From: Thermodesulfobacterium geofontis OPF15
Lineage (GTDB): Bacteria > Desulfobacterota > Thermodesulfobacteria > Thermodesulfobacteriales > Thermodesulfobacteriaceae
Length of the DNA stretch: 64,000 nt
Assembly: GCF_000215975.1 (NCBI RefSeq)
Contig: NC_015682.1
Span: 868,001 to 932,000, forward strand
Direction: 5' to 3'
This document shows, in pieces, positions 2,582 through 20,155 of this stretch. The notes beneath the pieces were generated by a model that saw only the letters and a list, made by a program, of their open reading frames with translations, made no database searches and was not told where the DNA came from. Numbering within the stretch: the first letter of the stretch is position 1; every line of letters starts with the position of its first letter. Made by a program: the position numbers and the translations under genes.

Positions 2582-3499
2582 TTATCCTAAGGATTTATAA
2601 AATGGGCTCATCTCATCCCAGAAATTAGGCTCAGTGCAACCAATACAAGGATGACCAGAACCTACAGGCCAGGTTCCAACATCACAAAATCTTATAACTG
2701 GACAGTTAGCATAAGTAACTGGTCCCTTACAACCAAGTTTATATAAGCAATATCCCTTTCTATGTCCTTCATCTCCAAATTTTTCTGCGAATCTTCCTTC
2801 ATCAAAATGAGCTCTTCTTTCACAGTGATCATGAATAAGTCTTCCATAAGCAAATTTAGGTCTTCTAAGCTTATCAAGCTCAGGAAGTTTACCAAAAGTT
2901 AAAATATAACTAACTGTAGCAAGGAAATTATAAGGATTAGGTGGGCATCCAGGAACATTTATAAGTTTGTCTACCCCAATTACATCTTTAACTCCTACTG
3001 CACCTGTGGGATTAGGAGCTGCTGCTTGAACTCCTCCAAAAGAGGCACAAGTTCCTATAGCAATAACTAACATAGCATCTTTAGCTACATCCTTTAAAAT
3101 CTGAATAGCAGGTTTTCCTGCTATTTTACAATAAATTCCTCCATCCTTTGTAGAGACAGCACCTTCTACTACACAGATATACTTTCCTTTATACTTCTCC
3201 ATAGTCTGATGAAGAACTTCTTCTGCCTGTTTTCCAGCAGCAGGCATTAAGGTTTCATGATACTCTAAATTAATAATATCAAGAACAAGTCTACCAATAG
3301 GAGGATGAGATGCCCTTAAAAGTGATTCTGTACAACCTGTGCATTCCATAAAGTGAAGCCAGATTACAGTAGGTTTAGGACCCTTTTTCATTGCAGCTTC
3401 TACTTTCTCTACCATTGAATAAGGAAGTCCCATAGTAGCTGTTACAATTGTGCATATTTTAAGAAAATCACGCCTACTTAGTTCTTTTAAATTAAGCAT
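2582..3499 (-). CDS. [NiFe] hydrogenase small subunit with Tat signal
   Basis: The Fe-S electron-transfer subunit, 305 residues. It begins with a twin-arginine signal (SRRDFLK at residues 8-14, hydrophobic stretch to about 30, likely cleavage near 36). CTGCTES (C53, C56) starts the proximal-cluster ligands, HDHCERRAH the distal region, and the C-terminal Cys pattern (ANCP, RFCDVG, HPCIGC) the medial and remaining ligands. The protein ends at about residue 305 without the C-terminal membrane helix found in HyaA-type subunits, so the heterodimer is probably soluble in the periplasm and donates electrons to a diffusible carrier such as cytochrome c. A strong AAGGAGGT ribosome site precedes the ATG. 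Confidence 0.95.
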   Translation of the reverse strand: MLNLKELSRRDFLKICTIVTATMGLPYSMVEKVEAAMKKGPKPTVIWLHFMECTGCTESLLRASHPPIGRLVLDIINLEYHETLMPAAGKQAEEVLHQTMEKYKGKYICVVEGAVSTKDGGIYCKIAGKPAIQILKDVAKDAMLVIAIGTCASFGGVQAAAPNPTGAVGVKDVIGVDKLINVPGCPPNPYNFLATVSYILTFGKLPELDKLRRPKFAYGRLIHDHCERRAHFDEGRFAEKFGDEGHRKGYCLYKLGCKGPVTYANCPVIRFCDVGTWPVGSGHPCIGCTEPNFWDEMSPFYKSLG

Positions 3500-8256: not shown

Positions 8257-8995
8257 ATGGAAAACTTAGTAATAGTTATAGGATTAGCTATTCTTTCTTT
8301 TATTTCAGGAATGCTTGGTTTGGGGGTTGCCTTTTCTGCTATTCCTTTTTTAGGTCTATTTATGCAAGACCTTGTACATCAAGTCCAACCTTTAAGTCTT
8401 TTATTAAATGGAGTAACTGCTTTTCTTAGTGCCTTAGGATTTGCTAAAAGTGGCTTTGTAGATTGGAAAAAAGCAATTTATCTCTCATTTATTACTACGC
8501 TTTCAGCTCCTATAGGTGCACTTATTGCTCAATTTATAAATCAAAATATAATCTGGGTAATTTATTTTTTAGCAGTTCTATATCTTGCTTATAGACTTTT
8601 TAAGCCCTTTAAAGCGCGGAAAGTTGTTAAGGAAAATTTTAAATTAGTTACTATTCTTGCTATTCCTATATCTGTTTTAAGTGGTCTTCTTGGAGTAGGT
8701 CCAGGCTTTTTACTTATGCCAACTCTTATTTTATGCGGTTTTGATCCTAAAAAAGCTGCAGGAATTAACGCCTTTGCAGTATGTCCTCCCTCTTTTTTCA
8801 GCACTTATCCCCCATTTAAGCTTAGCCCATTGGAATCTAAATTTAACCTTTATTTTAGTAATTATAGGTGCTATCTTTTCTTTTCTTGGTGCAAGGGCTA
8901 CCAGTCTCTATGTTCCAAGTGGAAGAATAAAGCAAATTTTTGGCATCTTGATCGTAATAGTAACAGCCTATAAAATAGCCTCCATATTTTCATAG
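8257..8995 (+). pseudogene. TauE/SafE-family exporter, interrupted by a frameshift at a T6 tract
   Basis: Sulfite/sulfonate-exporter-family membrane protein. One frame (from 8257) gives the first repeat, GMLGLGVAFSAIPFLG, and the start of the second, GLLGVGPGFLLMPTLI, then runs off into an unrelated tail ending at 8973. Dropping one T from the run at 8793-8798 joins it to the frame ending at 8995 and gives a smooth 245-residue protein (PPSFSALIPHLSLAHWNLNL and so on) with the closing GARATSLYVPSGRIKQIFG segment. The break is a single-base homopolymer event, so it may be sequence error, slippage or recent inactivation. Last gene of the ArsR operon. Confidence 0.8.
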
Positions 8996-9083: not shown

Positions 9084-10744
9084 ATGTTAAATAAGTTCAA
9101 AATTTTAAATTTTATAATTATTTTTCTTTTATTTTTTTTATAACAAGTTGTTCAAGAAATAAATCTAAACAATCTATAGAATCTAAAGCTGAAACTAATG
9201 CAATTCTAACTGGTTCTCCTTTAGTAATAGGACTTTTAAATGTAGATTCTCCTCAACAAACTTTTTTACAACTTTATCCATTAAAAACTTTCTTAGAAAA
9301 AAAGATTAAAAGACCAGTTTTTATAGATATATCTGCGGATTTTGATGAAATCGCTAAAAAAATTAAAGAAGAAAAGCTTCATCTCTTGATAATTGATCCA
9401 GCCTTTTATTGTGAATTAAAAGCTCTTTATCCAGAAAAAATATTTCCATTAGTAAAGCCTAAAGGAGGACAGGGAGAAGCAAGTAGTGTTTTTGTAACCA
9501 AAGAAAATTCTGGTATAGAAAGAATTTTTGACGCAGTAAATAAAAAACTTGCTTTAGGAGATAAAAGATCTTCTTTTAGTTACCTTATACCTCTTTCTAT
9601 GTTAAAAGATTTAGATTTGTCCTTGAATGATTTTTCGAAAGTAGATTTTTTAATTAAAGACAAAAGAATTGCTTTATCAGTATTATTAGGAGATTATGAA
9701 GTGGGGGCTCTAAGTGAGATTGTAGCCCAAACTTATCTAAACTCTGGCCTAAAAATAATAAAAGCATCCGAAAAAGTACCCGTATATTTAATAGCTTCCA
9801 CAAATTCTTTAAAAGAAAAAGAATCTTTTAAAGAAATTTTTTCTTCTCTTCCTGAAGAAGTTTTAAGTTCTTTAAAGGTTGAAAAATTTGTTCCTGCTGA
9901 GGATAGAGATTTTGACTACATAAGGGTTTTAATTAAATTATTTAAAGGTAAAGACTTAATAGAATACAAACCCGATACTATTAAAGTAGCCATACTTCCT
10001 CTTTATAGTCCACTCACCATTTACAAAAGGTTTGACCCTCTAATGAGATATCTCTCAGAAAAGACAGGAAGAGAATTTAAAATAGTTATTCCTAAGGATT
10101 TCGAAGAGTTTATTAACATAGTAAAAAAAGGGAAAGTACATTTTAGCTATCAAAATCCTTATGTATATGCTATTTTGTCAAAAGGTGGGTATGCTAAAGC
10201 GATAGCATTGACAGTGGGAGAAGATTGTACAGATAACCCAAGTGAAATCTGTGGAGGAGATAAATTTAGAGGGGTAATTATTGTAAGAAAAGACAGTCCT
10301 ATTAAAAATATAGAAGATCTGAAAAATAAAAAAATTTTGATAGTATCCCCTTATTCTGCTGGGGGCTTTTTATCTCAAAAAATTTATTTAGAGAAAAGAG
10401 GGTATAAATTAAAAAAAGATTTTCATCTAATTGACGCCAAAAGACAAGAAAAAGTTATCATAGGTGTATATAAAAAAATGGCTGACGCTGGATTTATAAG
10501 AGAATCAGCTCTTGGAGTATTTAGTGAAGAGGTAGATATTTCTCAAATAAAAATTTTAACTCCTACAGAATTTCTTCCTAATTGGCCTTGGGCAGTAATT
10601 AAAGCAGATAAAGATCTTGAAAGAATGGTTAAAGAAACAATAATTAATTTGCCTGACCCGATATTAAAAAATTTAAAAGTAAAAGGATTTAGACCTGTTG
10701 ATGAGAGAGAATTTGAACTACTTAAAAAATATGTTAATTTTTAA
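9084..10744 (+). CDS. Tandem PhnD-like periplasmic binding lipoprotein, frameshifted in its signal peptide
   Basis: A substrate-binding protein for the adjacent sensor kinase. Starting at ATG 9084 a lipoprotein signal MLNKFKILNFIIIFLLFF is read, which then hits a stop at 9141. Adding one T to the T8 run at 9132-9139 restores ITSC, with the lipobox Cys, and the long frame to 10744 (about 553 residues). Without repair the first in-frame start is TTG at 9386, in mid-domain. The mature part has two PhnD-like modules: one from PLVIGLLNVD to about AEDRDFDYIRVLI, the second from IKVAILPLYSPL to the end, with FSYQNPYVYAIL and SAGGFLSQKIYL. The 3' end overlaps the kinase gene. Related domains occur in TtrB/TtrS-type oxyanion sensing. 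Confidence 0.75.
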
Positions 10745-12332
10745 AGACCCTCTATCTTCTTTTTATAAACTTTTAAGAAGATTCAGTATCAGAAACAGAC
10801 TGTTTCTTTCTTTTTTGTTTATTATAATTTTATTAATTTTTAGCGTTAATTTTCTAATTATAAATTATCAAAAAAAATCTTTAAAAAAACAATATTATCA
10901 AGGATTAAAGCACAATTTAGAAATTTTTTCTTTAGAATTAGTAGATGGGTTAATTTTTTTTGATCCATTAAAGCTTGACGAAAAGGTTAATTCTCTTAAA
11001 ACTACTCCAGGAATAGTTTATGTAATGGTAATTGATAAAAAAGGAAAAATAGTAGCTCATAGTAATGCTTCACAATTAGGGAATTTTATACCTATAAATA
11101 GTTTTACTTTTAGAAATTGGGAAATAGTTGATTCAAATAAAATAAGGCATATTAATCTACCGGTTTTTAAAGAAGATTTTTACTTAGGTGCAGTAAGAGT
11201 AGGAGTTTCAGAGGTAGAACTTGAAGAATTTATAAATCAATCAATAAAAACTCTCAAGAATTATATGATTTTTATTTCAGGAATTTTTTTAGTAATAGCT
11301 TTAATTGTTTCTTATTTTATTTCTATTACTCTTACTCAACCGCTTGCTAAACTTAAAGAAAGCATTAAGAAAGCTCAAATAAATGAATTTGAACTTTGCG
11401 AGAATGAAAACCTTATTCTTTGTAAAGATTTTTACAAATGTCAAGAGACTCAATGTCCTGCTTATGGTAAAACAAGGTGTTGGCTTTATGAAACCTCAAG
11501 AAAATGGTGTAAAGAGGTATTACAAAAAGATTGTGAAGATTGCTATGTTTATAAATATTCTTGTAAAGACGAATTGGGTTATGTAATAGAAAGTTTTAAT
11601 AAAATGATGGTAGACCTTAAATTTTATATGGAAGAACTTCACAGAGCTACTCAAGAAAAAATTAAACTTGAAAAGATTTCTGCAGTTTCAGAAATGGCTA
11701 TGGTAGTAGCGCACGAAATTAAAAATCCTTTAAATTCTATTAAAGCTGCTTGTTCGTATTTGAAGGCTAATTTTAAAGGAAAAGTATTTCAAGAGTTTCT
11801 CTCAATTATAGATAGAGAGACTCAAAGATTAAATGAACTTATAACCAGCTTCTTAACTTATGCAAGGCCTATTTCCCTAAAACTTGAAAAAGCCAATATC
11901 AATACTATTATTAAAGATGTAATAAATTTGATGAAAACAGAATTTGAAGAAGAGGAGAAGATAATAGAAATGAACTTAGATCAATCTATTCCAGAATTTT
12001 ATTTTGACCCATCCCAGATTAAACAGATGATTCTAAATCTATTGGTAAATGCAGAAGATGCTACCAAAGAAGGTGATAAAATTTGGGTGATTACTCAAAA
12101 AGAAGGAGATTTTGTGGTAATTTCTGTAAAAGATACTGGAGAGGGGATTCCAGAAGAAATTCTTGACAAAATTTTTGAGCCCTTTTTTACTACTAAAGTT
12201 ACAGGGTCAGGGTTAGGTCTTGCTTGTGTAGAAAGAATTGTTAGAGAACATGGTGGGAAGATTACCGTTTTTAGTAAAAAAGGAGAAGGAACAGAATTTA
12301 AGGTTTTTCTTCCGATAAAATATGAGTTATAA
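10731..12332 (+). CDS. Membrane sensor histidine kinase with Cys-rich two-CW-like insert
   Basis: About 533 residues from the ATG at 10731 (an upstream in-frame ATG at 10698 would overlap the preceding gene by 47 bp). Order: transmembrane segment near residues 22-44; extracytoplasmic sensor region; second transmembrane segment near 177-200; HAMP-like start; a nine-cysteine stretch near residues 223-278 including CKDFYKCQETQCPAYG, CWLYETSRKWC and CEDCYVYKYSC; then the H-box AHEIKNPLNSIKA (His328) and a HATPase domain with DTGEGIPEEIL and GSGLGLAC. The Cys pattern resembles the two-CW motif found in HAMP proteins of sulfate reducers and may sense redox or bind metal. Its stop overlaps the regulator start by 11 bp. 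Confidence 0.88.
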   Translation: MLIFKDPLSSFYKLLRRFSIRNRLFLSFLFIIILLIFSVNFLIINYQKKSLKKQYYQGLKHNLEIFSLELVDGLIFFDPLKLDEKVNSLKTTPGIVYVMVIDKKGKIVAHSNASQLGNFIPINSFTFRNWEIVDSNKIRHINLPVFKEDFYLGAVRVGVSEVELEEFINQSIKTLKNYMIFISGIFLVIALIVSYFISITLTQPLAKLKESIKKAQINEFELCENENLILCKDFYKCQETQCPAYGKTRCWLYETSRKWCKEVLQKDCEDCYVYKYSCKDELGYVIESFNKMMVDLKFYMEELHRATQEKIKLEKISAVSEMAMVVAHEIKNPLNSIKAACSYLKANFKGKVFQEFLSIIDRETQRLNELITSFLTYARPISLKLEKANINTIIKDVINLMKTEFEEEEKIIEMNLDQSIPEFYFDPSQIKQMILNLLVNAEDATKEGDKIWVITQKEGDFVVISVKDTGEGIPEEILDKIFEPFFTTKVTGSGLGLACVERIVREHGGKITVFSKKGEGTEFKVFLPIKYEL

Positions 12333-13674
12333 AATACTTTTTATTGATGATGAAATAAATAGCTTAAAAACTATCTCAGTTATTCTTAAAAAACATAATT
12401 ATACTGTATTTACTGCCCAGACAGTCGAAGAGGGTATCTCACAACTTCAAAAACATAAACCTCACTGTCTCCTTCTTGATTACAGACTCCCAGGGAAAGA
12501 TGGAATAGAGATGTTAAAATGGTTAAAAAAGGAGAATATTAACATTCCAGTCATTATGCTTACTGCTTATGGAACTATAGAAAAAGCAGTAGAAGCAATG
12601 AAATTAGGAGCTTTTCATTATTTAGTAAAACCTGTAGATCCTACAGTTCTTCTTGAAACCATTAAAGAAGCTATTTCTAAACATGAAATCTTAAGCCATC
12701 AGGAAGATATCTCTTATAAGTTTCCAGAAATAATAGCTAAAAGTCAGGCAATGCGAGAAATTTTTTATATTATAGAAATGGTAGCAGATAGCAACTCTAA
12801 TGTGCTTATAACAGGAGAATCTGGTACAGGTAAGGAATTAGTAGCACGAGCTATTCATCGACTTTCAAAAAGAAAAAACCACCCTTTTATAGTGGTTGAT
12901 TGTGCTACTATACCAGATAATCTTTTAGAGTCTGAACTTTTTGGATACGAAAAAGGAGCTTTCACAGGAGCTACCGAAAGAAAAATTGGATTAATAGAGC
13001 TAGCAAACAGTGGTACAATTTTTTTAGATGAAATAGGAGATCTTTCTTTAAATTTACAAAAAAAATTGCTCAGGTTTCTACAAGAAAGAGAAATACAAAG
13101 ATTAGGAAGTCTCAACAAAATTAAAGTTGATGTAAGAGTTATTGCTGCAACTAACAGAGATCTTGAAAGAGCAGTAAAAGAAGGTGTCTTTAGAGAAGAT
13201 CTTTATTGGAGACTAAATGTAGTAAGAATACATTTACCTCCTCTTAGAGAAAGAAAAGAAGATATCCCTCTTCTTGTCCAACACTTTGTTCAGAAGTTTG
13301 CTAAAGAAAACAACCGTCCTATCCCTACTATAGAACCTGAAGTACTGGATGTTCTTCTTAATTATGATTGGCCTGGGAATGTAAGGGAGCTTGCAAATGT
13401 AATCGAACGTGCAGTTATTCTTTCTACCTCTGGAGTTATATCTCTCAAACACTTACCTAAGAGAATTTTAGGTAAAGAAAGTAAAACAAATGATTTTTCT
13501 TTAAATACTTTAAATTTATTAGAGATGGAAAAAGCTCTTATTATAAAAGCGTTAAATGAAACTGGCTGGAATCAAACAAAAGCTGCCCAATTATTAGGTA
13601 TTTCAAGAAAACAACTTCGAACTAAAATGAAACATCATGGATTGCTTCCTATTTCAAGCAATCAAAATAATTAA
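12322..13674 (+). CDS. NtrC-family sigma54-dependent response regulator
   Basis: 450 residues in three domains. The receiver has acidic pocket DD and phospho-acceptor D53 in LLLDYRLPGKDG. The AAA+ domain has Walker A GESGTGKE near residue 162, the sigma54-contacting loop GAFTGA at 209-214, DEIGDL and R-finger motifs. A C-terminal Fis-type helix-turn-helix (GWNQTKAAQLLGISRKQLRTKM) completes it. It is translationally coupled to the kinase. It is the only sigma54 activator in the window, and two sigma54-type promoters with a shared palindromic site lie 4.6 kb downstream, making those its likely targets. Confidence 0.95.
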   Translation: MSYKILFIDDEINSLKTISVILKKHNYTVFTAQTVEEGISQLQKHKPHCLLLDYRLPGKDGIEMLKWLKKENINIPVIMLTAYGTIEKAVEAMKLGAFHYLVKPVDPTVLLETIKEAISKHEILSHQEDISYKFPEIIAKSQAMREIFYIIEMVADSNSNVLITGESGTGKELVARAIHRLSKRKNHPFIVVDCATIPDNLLESELFGYEKGAFTGATERKIGLIELANSGTIFLDEIGDLSLNLQKKLLRFLQEREIQRLGSLNKIKVDVRVIAATNRDLERAVKEGVFREDLYWRLNVVRIHLPPLRERKEDIPLLVQHFVQKFAKENNRPIPTIEPEVLDVLLNYDWPGNVRELANVIERAVILSTSGVISLKHLPKRILGKESKTNDFSLNTLNLLEMEKALIIKALNETGWNQTKAAQLLGISRKQLRTKMKHHGLLPISSNQNN

Positions 13675-13691: not shown

Positions 13692-14168
13692 TTATTGAGT
13701 TGCTGTTTTCTTTGTTTTTTTCCTAATAATTTCCCATTTCAAAGCATGGGTGGTACATTTTGATACACAAGCAGGAAGAAGTCCTTGATCGATTCTATCT
13801 TTACAATAATCACACTTAACAACTTTACCAGTTTCTGGATCAAATTGTGGTATATTCCAAGGACAAGCTGTAATACATTCTTTACATCCTATGCAAAGAT
13901 CTTGATCTATAAAAACTATGCCGTCTTTTGATCTTTTTTGTATTGCTCCTGTGGGACAGGCTTTCATACATTCTGGATCTTTGCAATGAAAGCATGTCAT
14001 AAAAACAAATCGCTGAGTTATTCGCCCATTTTCTATTTTTATTTCCTTAGGAATTATATTACAAAGCCTTGGACCAGGAGCTAATCCTTTGTTGGTTTTG
14101 CAATGAACTATACAGGCAAAACAGCCGATACATCGATTATGATTTTGTAATATTCGATAAATTGCCAT
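13692..14168 (-). CDS. Four-cluster ferredoxin subunit (PhsB/HycB-like)
   Basis: The 158-residue electron-transfer partner of the molybdoenzyme encoded 13 bp upstream. Four Cys groups are visible: CIGCFACIVHC near the N-terminus, CFHCKDPECMKACP, CIGCKECITACP, and CDYCKDRIDQGLLPACVSKC, enough for four [4Fe-4S] clusters as in PhsB, PsrB and HycB. There is no signal peptide, and as a ferredoxin subunit it would follow the location of its catalytic partner, which also lacks one. No NrfD/PhsC membrane subunit follows; the next gene is convergent. Confidence 0.9.
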   Translation of the reverse strand: MAIYRILQNHNRCIGCFACIVHCKTNKGLAPGPRLCNIIPKEIKIENGRITQRFVFMTCFHCKDPECMKACPTGAIQKRSKDGIVFIDQDLCIGCKECITACPWNIPQFDPETGKVVKCDYCKDRIDQGLLPACVSKCTTHALKWEIIRKKTKKTATQ

Positions 14169-14181
14169 AAAATCAACCTCC

Positions 14182-16269
14182 TTAAACTTTTTTTACTTTT
14201 ACAAAGACCTCAAAAAGTGCTCCAGTATAGCTACCAAATGCAAATTTATCAAGAACTCCTTTAAGGAGCCTTCCCTCATTAAGACCTTTACCATAAACTC
14301 TACTAAGCCAAGGAATATCATTCTGATAACCTCTCACCATAAATACAGCCTCAGGATGGATATAAGGAGTTACTTTAGCTTTAATTTTTCCAGTATAATC
14401 TCCTGAGGAGACTTCTATCAAATCTCCATCTTTTATATTCAGCTTTTCTGCTATCTCTGAGTTTATCCAAAGTTCGTTTTCTGGTTTAATTTCATTTAAC
14501 AAAGGATTGTTCTGGGTTCTTGAATGGGTATGCACAGCTATCCTCCCAAAAATAAGTCTAAATTCACCCTCTTCAATTTTAGGTCTTTCTGGAGATTTAT
14601 AGGAATAAAAAATAGGTACCTCTCTTTCTTGCATTTTTGAAGAAACTATTTCTATCTTTCCAGAGGGGGTTTTAAACTTAAGTTGATCTCTTGGATAAAG
14701 AAGAGGTTCTTTACAAAGAGGAACCAAACCTTTCTCATCAAAGTCCTCTATTTTTATTCCTGTCCCTTCTAATTGATAATTCCAAATGTCTTCTATGGTT
14801 TCATAGGGGACATATTTTTCTAAACCAAGCCTTTTACATAATTCAGTGAAGATCCACCATCTCGGTTTAGTATCATAAACAGGATCTATCGCTTTTTTTC
14901 TTACTATAAATGCAGGTTTAGCTCCTCTTTGTAATCCTATAATATCATCCCTTTCAAGAAAAGTTGATTCTGGGAGGATAACATCAGCAAACCAACCAGT
15001 AGTTCCGTAATCCACTGGGATATGGACTAAAAGATCAAGATTTTTGATAATTGCTTTTATGTCTTCTAAAGGTATTCCTGCAAAAGGATCGTATCTATAG
15101 ACAATTAGCGCTTTTATGGGATAAGGTTCCTCTGTTTTTATTGCTTTAAAAAGATGTAAAATATGCCCGGCTCCGTCATACAAAAAACCTTTCCCCAATT
15201 CTGCTTCAATCCTTTTATCCTGAGGTGCTGGGATTGGGTCTAAAAGACTTTTTAAGGGATTTGCTCCTACTTCCTTAGGAGATTTAGCTAAAATTAAGCC
15301 ACCTTTTTGCTCTAAATTTCCAAGTAAAAAGTTTAGTATCCAAACAGCCCTGGCAAAGTAGAAAGAATCTACATATCTTGCACCAAACCAATAGGGATAG
15401 ATAATTACTTTAGGTTTAGCTTCACCAAGTTCTCTTGCAAGATTTATAATTTCAGATTCAGGAACTTCAGATTCTTTTTCAGCCCATTTAGGTGTGTAGG
15501 GTTTGATAAATTCTTCAAGTTCAGAAAGTCCCATTATATATTTTTCTACAAAATCTCTATCATAAAGTTCTTCCTTTAAAATTTGATATATAAGAGCTAA
15601 TATAACTGCGTAATCTGTTCCAGGTCTTATTCTTAAATATTTTGTTGCTTTAGTTGCAGTAACATTTACTCTTGGGTCAAAATAAGTAAACTTAGCACCA
15701 TTTTCTAAAGCTTTAAGTATGTTATTAGCCTCTCTTACAGATAATGCATCAAAAAAAGCCCTTCCAAAAGAAACTATATGTTTAGTATTAGCAAAATCGT
15801 AACTTATTTGATTTCTTGGAATGCCTATTAAACTTTGTAAGGCAAGATCAACATTCTTTCTGCAAAAATCATCATGGTTGAAATAATTGGGGGATCCAAT
15901 AGCTCTAATAAAAACTCTTTGCATCTCTCCAAAAATACCAGCACCTCTATCTAAAAGAGCAACTGATTTAGCTCCATACTTACCAATAATTTCAAAAAGA
16001 CGATTAACTACATAACTCATTGCCTCTTCCCAGGAGACCCTTTTCCATTTCCCAGAACCTCTTTCTCCAGTTCTTATCATTGGTCCTTGTGGACGTTCAT
16101 TATCATATATATGAGCTATAGCAGCAGAGCCTCTTGCACAAAGAGCTCCTTCTAATCCTGCTACATAAGGATTTCCTTCTATCCAAGTAATTTTTCCATC
16201 TTCAACCTCCACTCTTATAGGACAGCGAGCAGAACACATACCACATACTGAAAAAACTTGCTTTTTCAT
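14182..16269 (-). CDS. Molybdopterin oxidoreductase, PhsA/PsrA-like, without export signal
   Basis: The catalytic subunit, 695 residues, of the DMSO-reductase superfamily. An N-terminal [4Fe-4S] motif uses C9, C12, C16 and C44. Cys136 in DDFCRKN is at the position of the Mo ligand in Cys-type members (thiosulfate, polysulfide and arsenate reductases). The C-terminal pterin-binding domain has FRLIFGRIAVHTHSRTQNNPLL and LWINSEIAEKLNIKDGDLIEV. The start is fixed by GTAAGGAGG just upstream, and no twin-arginine signal precedes it, so the enzyme should be cytoplasmic, unlike typical PhsA/PsrA/TtrA. It is the third gene of an operon led by a DUF302 lipoprotein and an anion-type porin. The substrate is unproven; a sulfur oxyanion is my inference. 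Confidence 0.88.
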   Translation of the reverse strand: MKKQVFSVCGMCSARCPIRVEVEDGKITWIEGNPYVAGLEGALCARGSAAIAHIYDNERPQGPMIRTGERGSGKWKRVSWEEAMSYVVNRLFEIIGKYGAKSVALLDRGAGIFGEMQRVFIRAIGSPNYFNHDDFCRKNVDLALQSLIGIPRNQISYDFANTKHIVSFGRAFFDALSVREANNILKALENGAKFTYFDPRVNVTATKATKYLRIRPGTDYAVILALIYQILKEELYDRDFVEKYIMGLSELEEFIKPYTPKWAEKESEVPESEIINLARELGEAKPKVIIYPYWFGARYVDSFYFARAVWILNFLLGNLEQKGGLILAKSPKEVGANPLKSLLDPIPAPQDKRIEAELGKGFLYDGAGHILHLFKAIKTEEPYPIKALIVYRYDPFAGIPLEDIKAIIKNLDLLVHIPVDYGTTGWFADVILPESTFLERDDIIGLQRGAKPAFIVRKKAIDPVYDTKPRWWIFTELCKRLGLEKYVPYETIEDIWNYQLEGTGIKIEDFDEKGLVPLCKEPLLYPRDQLKFKTPSGKIEIVSSKMQEREVPIFYSYKSPERPKIEEGEFRLIFGRIAVHTHSRTQNNPLLNEIKPENELWINSEIAEKLNIKDGDLIEVSSGDYTGKIKAKVTPYIHPEAVFMVRGYQNDIPWLSRVYGKGLNEGRLLKGVLDKFAFGSYTGALFEVFVKVKKV

Positions 16270-16295: not shown

Positions 16296-17633
16296 TTAGA
16301 ATATTAGCTGTAAACCTACTCCGATATAATCTCCCGCTGCTCCTTTCTCCATTTTTATATTTGGATTATATGAATTATAAGCTGACCTTGCTGAACCATC
16401 TTGATCAACATAATGAATACTTAATTTCAATTTGTTTTCTTTTATATACCAATTTAACCCTATATCTATAACTCTTAATTCACCGTCACCATTTAAACTA
16501 TTTTTATCTCCTTCCCATTTTTGGTAAGTTATTGCTGGCTCAAGTATAGTTTTATTTGGAAGAACAAAATTATAACCTATTCTTATATGCCATACTTTAT
16601 CATCATAGTTAAAATCAGATTCATCAAAATTTCTTTTTAGCACATCATATTCGGCATTGAAAGTAAAGTTTTTATAATTAGCAAGTATATCAAAACCTAT
16701 CATTTGATTATTTTTAAATGGTTTATTTAATTTGCTATTTTTAGGATCAAAATATTTGGTACTATTTCCAAGTGTATACCAAATATCAGCAGCTAAAGGA
16801 TAAGAGATTGTGGGTTTTGCTCTTCCTTGATAAGCATAATTTATAGCAAAGGTGATACCATTTCTTTTTCCAAAATAATTTACTTTATATCCTAAGGTAT
16901 ATTTTTTCATTTCTGGATCACCAAGAGTGATAGCTACTCTTCCAGTATAAAGAAGATTGTCTCCACCTTTATCACCACTAAATTTATCTACATTAAATAC
17001 ACCAAAATTATAGTTTATTCCCCATTTTCTTTTTTCATCATTATACAAACCACCTATATTAATACCTGTTTCACGTCCAGGTCCTGTACCTACTAAATGC
17101 ATTCTTGGATAAAAATTTGCTAATGCTTTTTCCAAAGAAGGAACTTCAAAACCTGCTGTGATGCTCTCTCTTCCTACTTGTGGTCTAAAATATCCTATAG
17201 TTATGTTAGCCCAGTTTTTATGAAGTGCATATGTAAACATGGCATCCCAAATATAAAACTCTCGGTTATTAACATTGTAATTTACCAACCCTACATTGTT
17301 ATTATTAGTAATAGCAGTATGTGGATCCATTCCTACATTATCATAAGCAAACCAAACTCTCCAAGACAAATTTTCACTTATCTTTCCTTGGAAACCAAGC
17401 CTTGATCTTCTGAGGAAAAAATCCCATCTATTGTCATATTTTGTACCATTTTCTACTCTATCCATTGTATAAATAGCCCAGAGTTGATTGCAGAAAAAGA
17501 TTTCAAGTTCTTGACCTTCTCCAAAGGTAAATGTGGGCGCAGCATTAGTTGATGTAGTAAATAATATTGCACTTGCCAATCCTACCTCTGTTAATAAAGC
17601 TTTTTTCTTTAATTTTTTTACTATTTTTTTCAT
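16296..17633 (-). CDS. Outer-membrane porin, phosphate-selective OprO/OprP-like
   Basis: A 445-residue beta-barrel protein with an N-terminal signal peptide (Lys-rich start, hydrophobic ALLTEVGLASAILF, cleavage near TNAAP). Features include an early RRSRLGFQGKISENLSWRVWF segment, alternating aromatic strands throughout, and a C-terminal strand ending in phenylalanine (GVGLQLIF), which are typical of trimeric porins of the OprO/P type. These favour anions. It lies between the DUF302 lipoprotein and molybdoenzyme genes in one operon, so it may admit the anionic substrate of that enzyme. A GGAGGGGGG-type ribosome site precedes the ATG. Confidence 0.8.
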   Translation of the reverse strand: MKKIVKKLKKKALLTEVGLASAILFTTSTNAAPTFTFGEGQELEIFFCNQLWAIYTMDRVENGTKYDNRWDFFLRRSRLGFQGKISENLSWRVWFAYDNVGMDPHTAITNNNNVGLVNYNVNNREFYIWDAMFTYALHKNWANITIGYFRPQVGRESITAGFEVPSLEKALANFYPRMHLVGTGPGRETGINIGGLYNDEKRKWGINYNFGVFNVDKFSGDKGGDNLLYTGRVAITLGDPEMKKYTLGYKVNYFGKRNGITFAINYAYQGRAKPTISYPLAADIWYTLGNSTKYFDPKNSKLNKPFKNNQMIGFDILANYKNFTFNAEYDVLKRNFDESDFNYDDKVWHIRIGYNFVLPNKTILEPAITYQKWEGDKNSLNGDGELRVIDIGLNWYIKENKLKLSIHYVDQDGSARSAYNSYNPNIKMEKGAAGDYIGVGLQLIF

Positions 17634-17650: not shown

Positions 17651-18202
17651 TTATTTTGCTATCTTGTCTATTATTTCTTTAAGTTCTAAATCCAACTCTT
17701 TTAAAGCTTTTATACTTTCAGTGTCCAAATTACCCATATATCTAATCGCTGTACTTGGTTTAAATGTTCCCACTATTATTCTTCCATTTTTTTCGTATAC
17801 GTATATTTTGAAGGGAAATTGTGATATAAGCTGTGGATTATGTTTTATTATTTTTGCATATTGAGGTGTTTTATAGATAAGATATATGCATATATTTCCC
17901 CATAAATCCTTATTTTCTTGTTCTTCTAATAATTTTAATATATGGAAAATTTTAAAATTCTTTTTTTCAAGTTCAGTTCTTAAGAACTTATCCAGTTCTT
18001 CATAAGACCATCTGGTTGCTTTTTCATATACATCAGACATTTCTTCCTCTTCTGAAGGTTCAGGGATTGCTTCTTTTTCATCATATCCTGTTCCTAAATA
18101 GTCTCCAGTTTCAAAAGATATATCCTTTATCACACCCCCACAAGAAATAATAGTCATAGAAAAAATAGTTATAAATACATTTTTAAGCAAATCTTTCCTC
18201 AT
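17651..18202 (-). CDS. DUF302-domain lipoprotein
   Basis: 183 residues. The N-terminus MRKDLLKNVFITIFSMTIISC has a lipobox with Cys21, so the protein should be anchored to a periplasm-facing membrane surface. After an acidic linker (EPSEEEE) comes a DUF302-like domain: NFKIFHILKLLEEQEN, then ICIYLIYKTPQYAKII, LISQFPFKIYVYEKNGRIIVG and a closing helix. DUF302 function is unknown, but such proteins often accompany sulfur or thiol metabolism genes. It is the first gene of the leftward operon and its start lies about 35 bp from the sigma54-type promoter at 18237-18251. Confidence 0.72.
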   Translation of the reverse strand: MRKDLLKNVFITIFSMTIISCGGVIKDISFETGDYLGTGYDEKEAIPEPSEEEEMSDVYEKATRWSYEELDKFLRTELEKKNFKIFHILKLLEEQENKDLWGNICIYLIYKTPQYAKIIKHNPQLISQFPFKIYVYEKNGRIIVGTFKPSTAIRYMGNLDTESIKALKELDLELKEIIDKIAK

Positions 18203-18236
18203 AATGCTTTTTACTGAAATTTTTAATTATGAAAAA

Positions 18237-18251
18237 GCAAAGTTGATGCCA
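18237..18251 (-). promoter_or_regulatory. Sigma54 promoter of the DUF302-porin-molybdoenzyme operon
   Basis: On the minus strand TGGCATCAACTTTGC matches the -24/-12 consensus, with GG and GC separated by exactly 10 bp. The expected transcription start is near 18225, about 23 nt before the lipoprotein start codon. Confidence 0.75.
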
Positions 18252-18314
18252 AAAATTTAATAATGTTAAATTGATTGAAATTATTAATTTTTAAAAAATT
18301 TTAAAAAATAAATA

Positions 18315-18353
18315 TTGTCCGAAAGGGAACAATGGTTGTTCCGAATGGGACAA
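18315..18353. promoter_or_regulatory. Tandem 18-bp inverted repeats, likely enhancer for the sigma54 activator
   Basis: Two near-palindromes, TTGTCCGAAAGGGAACAA (18315-18332) and TTGTTCCGAATGGGACAA (18336-18353), lie with centres 21 bp apart, i.e. two helical turns. Each pairs a TTGTCC arm with a TTGTTCC arm. The midpoint (about 18334) is 83-84 bp from the GG of both divergent sigma54-type promoters. A further half-site-like GGAACG follows at about 18357. Confidence 0.75.
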
Positions 18354-18416
18354 TGGAGGAACGAAAATAAAAAACTAAAAGATTTGAATTTTAGAAATTT
18401 AGGAAATTTTTTAATA

Positions 18417-18431
18417 GGCACATTCTTTGCT
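18417..18431 (+). promoter_or_regulatory. Sigma54 promoter of the split TauE genes
   Basis: GGCACATTCTTTGCT has GG and GC separated by exactly 10 bp and matches both half consensus elements apart from the leading T. The expected start is near 18442, leaving a roughly 24-nt leader containing AAGGAGGGG before the ATG at 18466. This also shows that an upstream in-frame TTG at 18427 cannot be the start codon. Confidence 0.78.
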
Positions 18432-18465
18432 CACACTTTTTAAAAACCAAAAGGAGGGGAGGGTT

Positions 18466-19761
18466 ATGCGGTACAAATTAAAATTTAATTTTATTTCCTT
18501 TCTATTATTTATTTTTATTCTTTTTTCTAACCATCTTTTAGCACATTCCCAGGTTAAGCTTACCGAACCTACTAAGGAAGCACCATCTTTAAAAATTGAG
18601 CTACAGGCTGATAAAACATCCTTTAAAGGTGGTGAAAAAATCAAACTTACAGGAAAAGTGCCTGAAGGTTACAGAGTAAATTTTATAGAAATTACTTCTA
18701 AGGAAAAAGTACAAGTTAGTAGATTGGATAGAAAGGATTTTAAATTTTATTTAAGTAAAGAAATACCAGCTTTTTATCAAATATGGATCGCCGATGATTA
18801 TATAGCTAAGGTAGATAAAAATGGAACGGTAGAAGAAAGACCCGTAAAAGAAATCTATCAAAAATACAAACAGGATAAAAAATGGAGAATAGGAGAATTT
18901 TTAAAGGAAAGTAATGCTAATGTAGCCTTTATCACCCCTGTTAAAGAAATTAAACAAATTGATGTGTGGAAGACTACAGTATTAAGGGCTATTATAGGCT
19001 CAAGAGGTATTAAATTAGAACCTCTTACTGATAAAAAGGACATAAGTAAGGAAGCTGCCAGATTAATTCAAACAAGGTTTAAAGAATTTGAGAAAATTTT
19101 TATACTTACAAAAATTAAAAACAATCCTGATGGAACCTTTGAGACAGAGATAACACTTCCTGAGAATGCTCCCAAAGGGGAGTTTATAGTGGTAGCTGTA
19201 GCTAATAAAGAAGTAAAAAGTGACCCTATTCAACTAACTCATAATATTTCTTTTCCTAAGGTATATTTTCCTGTAGCCGGGACTTCTACTAATATGTTTG
19301 GACCTCTTATATTATCTTTTCTTATTTGTACTTTTGGAGTAATAATGGGAGCAGGTGGAGGTTTTATTTTAAATCCTTTATTGATTCTTATTTATGGATT
19401 ACCTCATGGTGTGGTTGCTGGTTCAGTAATGCCCACCGTACTTTTTAGCCAGGCTTCAGGGATTTACAATTACTCAAAAATAGGATTTATCAATTGGAAA
19501 CTTGGAATCGGAGTAGGTATTTTTATGTTAATCGGTGGTTTCTTAGGTCCTCTTTTAAATCAGTTTGTTACTTTAGAGGAATATAAGTTTATCTTTGGAA
19601 TTATACTTTTAATACTTGCAGCCCTTCTTCTCTGGCAGACAACCCCAGGTTATATTGAAAAGAATAAGAAGGAAAGGGCTATTCTTCAAGAATATCTAAA
19701 ACGTGCTAAGGAAGCTAAGGAAAGAAAATCCAAAATAGGAGGTGAAACGTATGAAGCTTAA
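18466..19761 (+). CDS. TauE/SafE-type exporter, first half, with large ectodomain
   Basis: 431 residues. The N-terminal hydrophobic segment (ISFLLFIFILFSNHLL) is followed by about 230 residues that should lie outside the cytoplasm and look beta-rich (SLKIELQADKTSFKGGEKIKLTGKVP; a second such region with DGTFETEITLPENAPKGEFIVVAV). Then come about four transmembrane segments that form one TauE repeat, with VIMGAGGGFILNPLLILIYGLP. The C-terminus is a charged Lys/Glu-rich tail. The second TauE repeat is in the next gene, which overlaps by 11 bp, so the working transporter is probably a two-subunit complex. Controlled by the sigma54-type promoter at 18417. Confidence 0.82.
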   Translation: MRYKLKFNFISFLLFIFILFSNHLLAHSQVKLTEPTKEAPSLKIELQADKTSFKGGEKIKLTGKVPEGYRVNFIEITSKEKVQVSRLDRKDFKFYLSKEIPAFYQIWIADDYIAKVDKNGTVEERPVKEIYQKYKQDKKWRIGEFLKESNANVAFITPVKEIKQIDVWKTTVLRAIIGSRGIKLEPLTDKKDISKEAARLIQTRFKEFEKIFILTKIKNNPDGTFETEITLPENAPKGEFIVVAVANKEVKSDPIQLTHNISFPKVYFPVAGTSTNMFGPLILSFLICTFGVIMGAGGGFILNPLLILIYGLPHGVVAGSVMPTVLFSQASGIYNYSKIGFINWKLGIGVGIFMLIGGFLGPLLNQFVTLEEYKFIFGIILLILAALLLWQTTPGYIEKNKKERAILQEYLKRAKEAKERKSKIGGETYEA

Positions 19762-20155
19762 GGTAGAATTTTGGGGACAAGAGTTTGAAGCTAATATGAT
19801 AATTGGTGCTATAGGAGGGTTTTTGATCGCTGTTGCCTCAAGTTTAGGAGGTTTCGGAGGAGGACCCTTTGTAGTTCCCCTTATGACAGTTATCATGGGT
19901 CTTCCAATTTATGTAGTAGTAGGAAGTTCACTTTTAGCTATCTTTTTTAATACCCTTATGGGGAGCTTACGTTATTTCTTTTTTGGACAAACTGACCTTT
20001 TGTTATTTATAGTTATGGCTATAGGTGCAGTAGCAGCTGGTTTTGTAGGACCAAGAATTGCTAAAAGATTGAGTCCTGTCTGGGTTAAAAGAGTTGCTGC
20101 TATAGGTATAATTTATCTTGGATTAAAACTCTTAAATGTTCCATTTATTCCTTAA
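19751..20155 (+). CDS. TauE/SafE-type exporter, second half
   Basis: 134 residues from the ATG at 19751, which has AGGAGG eight bases upstream (a GTG at 19742 is less well placed). About four transmembrane segments form a single TauE repeat, with ASSLGGFGGGPFVVPLMTVIMGLP as the conserved repeat motif and MGSLRYFFFGQTDLLLF next. It complements the repeat at the C-terminus of the preceding protein; together they make one full-length TauE-type permease core. The overlap of the two genes argues for a stable complex. Family members export sulfite or sulfonates; the true substrate is unknown. Confidence 0.82.
   Translation: MKLKVEFWGQEFEANMIIGAIGGFLIAVASSLGGFGGGPFVVPLMTVIMGLPIYVVVGSSLLAIFFNTLMGSLRYFFFGQTDLLLFIVMAIGAVAAGFVGPRIAKRLSPVWVKRVAAIGIIYLGLKLLNVPFIP

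Follow-up and report, generated by a model that had tools for sequence, protein, structure and literature searches.

Genes flanking the gap

The window, by which we mean the whole 64,000-nucleotide stretch of the Thermodesulfobacterium geofontis OPF15 genome analysed here, contains a 263-bp gap (18203-18465; 25% GC) between an operon on the minus strand and TauE/SafE genes on the plus strand. The minus-strand operon starts with a DUF302 lipoprotein-like gene (17651-18202; PF03625 at 24.8 bits, barely above the cut-off of 23), followed by a porin of the Porin_O_P family (16296-17633) whose nearest NCBIfam family, ExtI, scores below its cut-off, a molybdopterin oxidoreductase referred to as MopB (14182-16269), and a 4Fe-4S electron-transfer subunit (13692-14168). 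In comparisons with profiles and with a solved structure (2vpw), MopB is closest to sulfur reductases of the PhsA/PsrA type. It was rejected as a true PhsA because it scores 525 bits against the curated NCBIfam PhsA family, below the cut-off of 694, and it is treated here as PhsA/PsrA-like only. No export signal was seen at its N-terminus.

On the plus strand, the gene at 18466-19761 encodes an N-terminal domain and the first half of a TauE/SafE (TSUP) transporter, passing the PF01925 cut-off of 32.6 bits with 67 bits over half of the domain. The second half is assigned to 19742-20155 from its location and because it is consistently paired with the preceding gene, a counterpart following the same gene in 11/11 relatives read. 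The transporter (18466-20155) is thus divided over two overlapping reading frames, and it likewise occupies two frames in all relatives read. A second TauE/SafE gene in the window (8257-8973) has an apparent frame change near its 3' end, with a transporter-like C-terminus continuing in the other frame. The labels "import, enzyme, export" given to these functions in the initial annotation are putative and derive from family names only (Porin_O_P, PhsA-like molybdopterin protein and TauE/SafE).

Three plus-strand genes elsewhere in the window encode a probable signalling system. The first product is a PhnD-like periplasmic binding protein (9386-10744; PF12974 at 248 bits, with a weak TtrS match), a probable sensor partner of the adjoining histidine kinase (10737-12332), which has a Cache domain (Pfam sCache_3_2, HisKA and HATPase_c). 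The third is an NtrC-type response regulator (12322-13674) with a PF00072 receiver, a PF00158 AAA+ domain and a PF02954 Fis-type HTH, all above cut-off; the GAFTGA motif attributed to it earlier is indeed present in the AAA+ domain. The TtrS match reaches 41 bits against 750 required, and the PhnD-like protein and the kinase are separate genes in the window; a function like that of the TtrS/ThsS-type sensors is possible despite the failed score. In the PhnD-like lipoprotein, the signal peptide (from the ATG at 9084) and the mature part lie in different frames on either side of a T8 tract near 9132 (within 9084-9386); in the congeners G028, G065 and G175 a single frame covers the whole gene and the lipoprotein signal is intact. 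The break may be a real frameshift, a slippery tract or a sequencing error. Because the signal peptide is out of frame in this genome, sensing may be altered in the strain.

Promoters and dyads in the gap

Each strand of the gap carries one sigma54 -24/-12 element with GG-N10-GC spacing. On the minus strand, TTGGCATCAACTTTGCT (18236-18252) agrees with the consensus at 12/12 positions and faces the lipoprotein-porin-MopB-FeS operon; on the plus strand, TAGGCACATTCTTTGCT (18415-18431) agrees at 11/12 positions and faces the TauE/SafE genes, and its ortholog in G028 reads TTGGCATAATCTTTGCT. Between the two promoters, and upstream of each, sit two 18-bp dyads of the form TTGTYC-N6-GRACAA, TTGTCCGAAAGGGAACAA (18315-18332) and TTGTTCCGAATGGGACAA (18336-18353), which are probable regulator sites and whose starts are 21 bp apart. 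Measured to the first G of the GG in each -24 element, the midpoint of this tandem array is at distances of +83 and -84 bp. Both the promoter pair and the inverted repeats had been proposed in the initial annotation, and both are borne out.

These elements are rare in their surroundings. The pattern GGCAY-N5-TTGCW has two strict matches in the 64-kb window, one per strand and both in the gap (0.13 expected), and TTGTYC-N6-GRACAA also has two, again both in the gap (0.02 expected). Dinucleotide shuffling of the gap gave a promoter pair at the observed score in 0/20,000 shuffles and a tandem dyad in 0/5,000. The genome, a single contig of 1,634,377 bases, contains the tandem array once in its 1.63 Mb and encodes sigma54, whose presence the earlier reading presupposed, in one rpoN copy (PF04552 at 210 bits). 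Single dyads with up to two mismatches were found elsewhere in the genome at 46 vs 26 per strand for a reversed-pattern control; at this ~1.8x ratio, the lone dyads were set aside as regulon members. Among 148 genomes of the phylum, a search for the array pattern as it stands, allowing three mismatches, matched the window alone; this pattern is over-strict, since the spacing is 21 or 22 bp and the half-sites are variable.

Conservation of the arrangement in relatives

Strong relatives of TauE2 occur in 12/41 genomes of the order, and the analysis covered the regions around them. Comparison of the gap recovered the dyads and the -24/-12 elements in sister genera as well as in congeners, as the initial annotation had anticipated. 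Seven other Thermodesulfobacteriaceae genomes (G100, G158, G161, G162, G163, G183 and G174) have an array of this kind with opposed -24/-12 elements on either side. The first six belong to two sister genera, in which MopB is ~45-48% identical to that of the window; here the array lies upstream of the MopB operon and, wherever the contig continues, also of TauE2, with a -24/-12 element each way. Most of the six have two sites 22 bp apart, while G183 has three at 21 bp and G161 has two at 30 bp. The contig of G158 stops past the plus promoter, so that the partner gene falls outside the sequence, and in G100, G162 and G183 an extra stretch between array and MopB resembles, by eye, universal-stress-protein coding sequence.

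Gene order in the congener G174 matches that of the window (PhnD, kinase, response regulator, FeS-MopB reading back, array, TauE-family gene), with array distances of +82.5 and -74.5; the TauE-family gene there and the one in the window are not closely related. In four further congeners (G028, G065, G166 and G175) the TauE genes are either ~40-65 kb away from MopB or on a different contig, and each of the separated operons retains a strong dyad and a -24/-12 element; the second dyad is degenerate in most, and the sites of the separated operons are partly degenerate. Over the relatives, array-to-promoter distances range from 58 to 122 bp. The symmetry claimed for the array therefore holds in the window and fails in its relatives, and exact centring was rejected as a functional requirement or family rule. 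The predicted regulon comprises several operons, and in the window, as in a number of relatives, two of them are served by one enhancer.

Further loci carry related sites. On contig C18 of G158 (L365, ~2036-2160), a near-perfect tandem array and a separate -24/-12 element, TAGGCATTTTTTTTGCT, accompany another TauE-family gene, which, judged from these elements, is a further predicted regulon member. Dyads and, by eye, a GG-N10-GT element also occur at a gene that lies upstream of the regulator operon in G174. On contig C22 of G159 (L367, from 84000-87801; ~2290-2550), dyads upstream of MopB lie between two opposed GG-N10-GT elements, also identified by eye, and the outward element has no correctly oriented gene behind it; the pair is possibly a relic of the shared arrangement.

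Co-occurrence of regulator and sites

Close orthologues of the 12322-13674 regulator are restricted to the genus. A search with its DNA-binding segment gave as best match a regulator on the array's own contig, ~10-17 kb from the TauE/MopB genes, in G100, G158, G159, G160, G161 and G183, and one on a different contig in G162. These regulators have in common the recognition helix NQT..A..LG[IL][ST]RKQL, which is absent from the other NtrC-type regulators examined in the same genomes. Reading frames of ~845-875 aa with a PhnD-like domain are also present on the array's contig in G100, G159, G160, G161 and G183.

The helix is found in 13/41 genomes, and all of these (13/13) have dyads at the operons in question, compared with 2/28 genomes that lack it (G163 and G165). 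This gives a Fisher p of 6e-9, which favours the positives because their loci also received relaxed scans, whereas for most of the 28 the profile was the sole scan; under a uniform profile criterion the counts are 10/13 vs 2/28 (p 1.4e-5), and for both p values the genomes are related, so that the counts are not independent. In G163, which is 83% complete, there is an array and no such regulator was found. The regulator of G165 is broken, with sites still present at these operons, and G170 has no regulator; the sites are decayed in both. Since the helix tracks the sites across genomes, the 12322-13674 regulator is the likely activator acting through the dyads, and the connection that had been drawn between the two is strengthened by this co-occurrence.

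The profile, for which eight array copies were taken exclusively from the sister genera, recovers the window array with an E of 0.024, as well as held-out sites beside the expected genes in G161, G165, G174, G159 and G028. The window array ranks second in its own genome, behind a match at 1267328 (E 0.0098) inside a long carboxylase-type reading frame, which was taken as a chance match in coding sequence. Two other matches were discarded as sites, one in G170 that lies in coding sequence and one in G167 that lies between listed ORFs beside a coding region, with no promoter seen.

Two of these genomes contain altered versions of the system. In G165 (L124, contig C89), the kinase and the regulator are frameshifted fragments, and dyads persist both upstream of MopB and close to the beginning of the contig, an apparent case of regulon decay as read from the sequence. 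The regulator of G167 ends before the HTH, and on contig C10 (L127) a perfect dyad at 3391-3408 lies upstream of a porin-like gene without a proper -24.

Tandem arrays in other phyla

Genome contigs were scanned with the pattern TTGTYC-N6-GRACA-N5..6-TGTYC-N6-GRACA, and 80 of the loci listed (L189-L268) were examined. Among the matches listed, tandem arrays with sites 21-22 bp apart belong mostly to Bacteroidota, plus some other phyla. A correctly oriented -24/-12 element lies at 25-200 bp in 39/80 loci among the matches listed, against ~4.8 at random positions, and 18/80 of them have an NtrC-type regulator in the surrounding stretch. This suggests that the tandem TGTYC-N6-GRACA array is a widespread enhancer class.

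Control of the gap and alternative explanations

We consider it probable that the gap controls sigma54-dependent transcription in both directions, with one array and the 12322-13674 regulator inducing both operons. An unlikely alternative is that the array and both promoters are real and that the dyads are bound by another NtrC-type regulator encoded elsewhere. The genome does encode several further NtrC-type regulators, and the array of G163 stands without a detected regulator of the RKQL type. Against this, tracking of the arrays is confined to regulators with the RKQL helix, such a regulator sits on the array's contig at ~10-17 kb in 6/7 sister genomes having one, and the sites decay where it is broken or missing (G165 and G170). 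Use of the array in one direction only, with the other -24/-12 element being a chance match or unused, is slightly less likely again. The array upstream of TauE2 serves a single direction in G028, G065, G166 and G175, and the second element of the G159 locus, seen by eye, has no correctly oriented gene; however, opposed elements recur in the seven other genomes, the minus-strand element is the better of the two matches, and the separated MopB operons have kept a dyad and -24/-12 element of their own.

We regard as very improbable a third reading, in which a repressor or a sigma70-type activator uses the dyads as operators and the -24/-12 resemblance is incidental. Symmetric dyads alone do not reveal the class of their regulator, but their position at 58-122 bp from a -24/-12 element at nearly every locus is that of an enhancer and not of an operator, and arrays with this spacing from other phyla adjoin -24/-12 elements far more often than expected.

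Proposed mechanism and signal

For the bidirectional control region, the following sequence of events is proposed. The PhnD-like binding protein and the histidine kinase (9386-12332) would detect a small anion, with a sulfur oxyanion as the likeliest candidate, and the kinase would then phosphorylate the NtrC-type regulator. Regulator dimers would occupy the tandem dyads (18315-18353) and build an AAA+ ring, and looping of the A+T-rich DNA would allow sigma54 polymerase to be opened at either -24/-12 element. The predicted output is the lipoprotein, porin, PhsA-like molybdoenzyme and FeS protein on the minus side and the split TauE/SafE transporter on the plus side, with both promoters presumably firing in the same cell.

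Since the PhnD-like protein recalls TtrS and ThsS, which are encoded beside matching reductases, a sulfur oxyanion would by analogy be the likeliest signal. Phosphite, selenite, tellurite and arsenic oxyanions are possible alternatives; ExtI, the nearest named family of the porin, is associated with selenite/tellurite reduction.

Comparison with known systems

The nifF and nifLA promoters of Klebsiella pneumoniae are divergent and use the same sigma factor, with activator sites between them, and are under NtrC/NifA control in nitrogen fixation. In the sulfate reducer Desulfovibrio vulgaris, the two divergent sigma54 operons orp1 and orp2 are jointly activated by DVU2106 at palindromic sites (PMC3897727), and thus share with the window divergent sigma54 operons, a single enhancer-binding protein, palindromic sites and a sulfate-reducing host. 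They differ in the regulator, in their cell-division genes and in mapped IHF sites, and they were shown by experiment, whereas the window is known from its sequence; their sites are also described per promoter, while the window has one central array for both. In the zraP/zraSR system of enterobacteria, ZraR acts on divergent sigma54 promoters in response to zinc and envelope stress (PMC4987338). Like the window, it combines a two-component NtrC-type regulator with divergent sigma54 promoters; one of its divergent operons encodes the regulator, which in the window belongs to a third, nearby operon. Joint control of divergent sigma54 operons has also been predicted for the DVUA0100 regulon of D. 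vulgaris (PMC4641369), which has a different regulator and functions in type III secretion.

The PhnD-like domains of TtrS and ThsS sense tetrathionate and thiosulfate, respectively, and their genes lie beside those of the matching reductases (PMC5408782). As in the window, a PhnD-like sensing domain adjoins a PhsA-like or tetrathionate reductase operon. In TtrSR and ThsSR, the PhnD-like domain and the kinase form one protein, in contrast to the separate PhnD-like protein of the window's genus. The response regulator of ThsSR is FixJ-like (PMC5408782), whereas that of the window is NtrC-type and is predicted to act via sigma54. Joint control of divergent sigma54 operons is therefore already known as a kind, and what is new is the set of regulator, site and targets, for which no description was found in the open-access literature searched.

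Significance

Arrays with sites 21-22 bp apart, ~60-95 bp upstream of a -24/-12 element, could form one undescribed sigma54 enhancer class across Thermodesulfobacteriota, Bacteroidota and other phyla, which in Thermodesulfobacteriaceae has moved between single- and two-promoter use; we put this forward tentatively, the odds being somewhat against it. If true, enhancer sharing would be traceable as an evolutionary state. The genomes form a natural series in which similar operons have shared or separate enhancers, so that the effect of sharing on co-expression is directly testable, and the site definition would make the regulon readable from sequence in relatives. In thermophilic sulfur bacteria, for which little regulation has been mapped, the analysis gives a two-component system linked to sulfur a probable DNA site and target genes.
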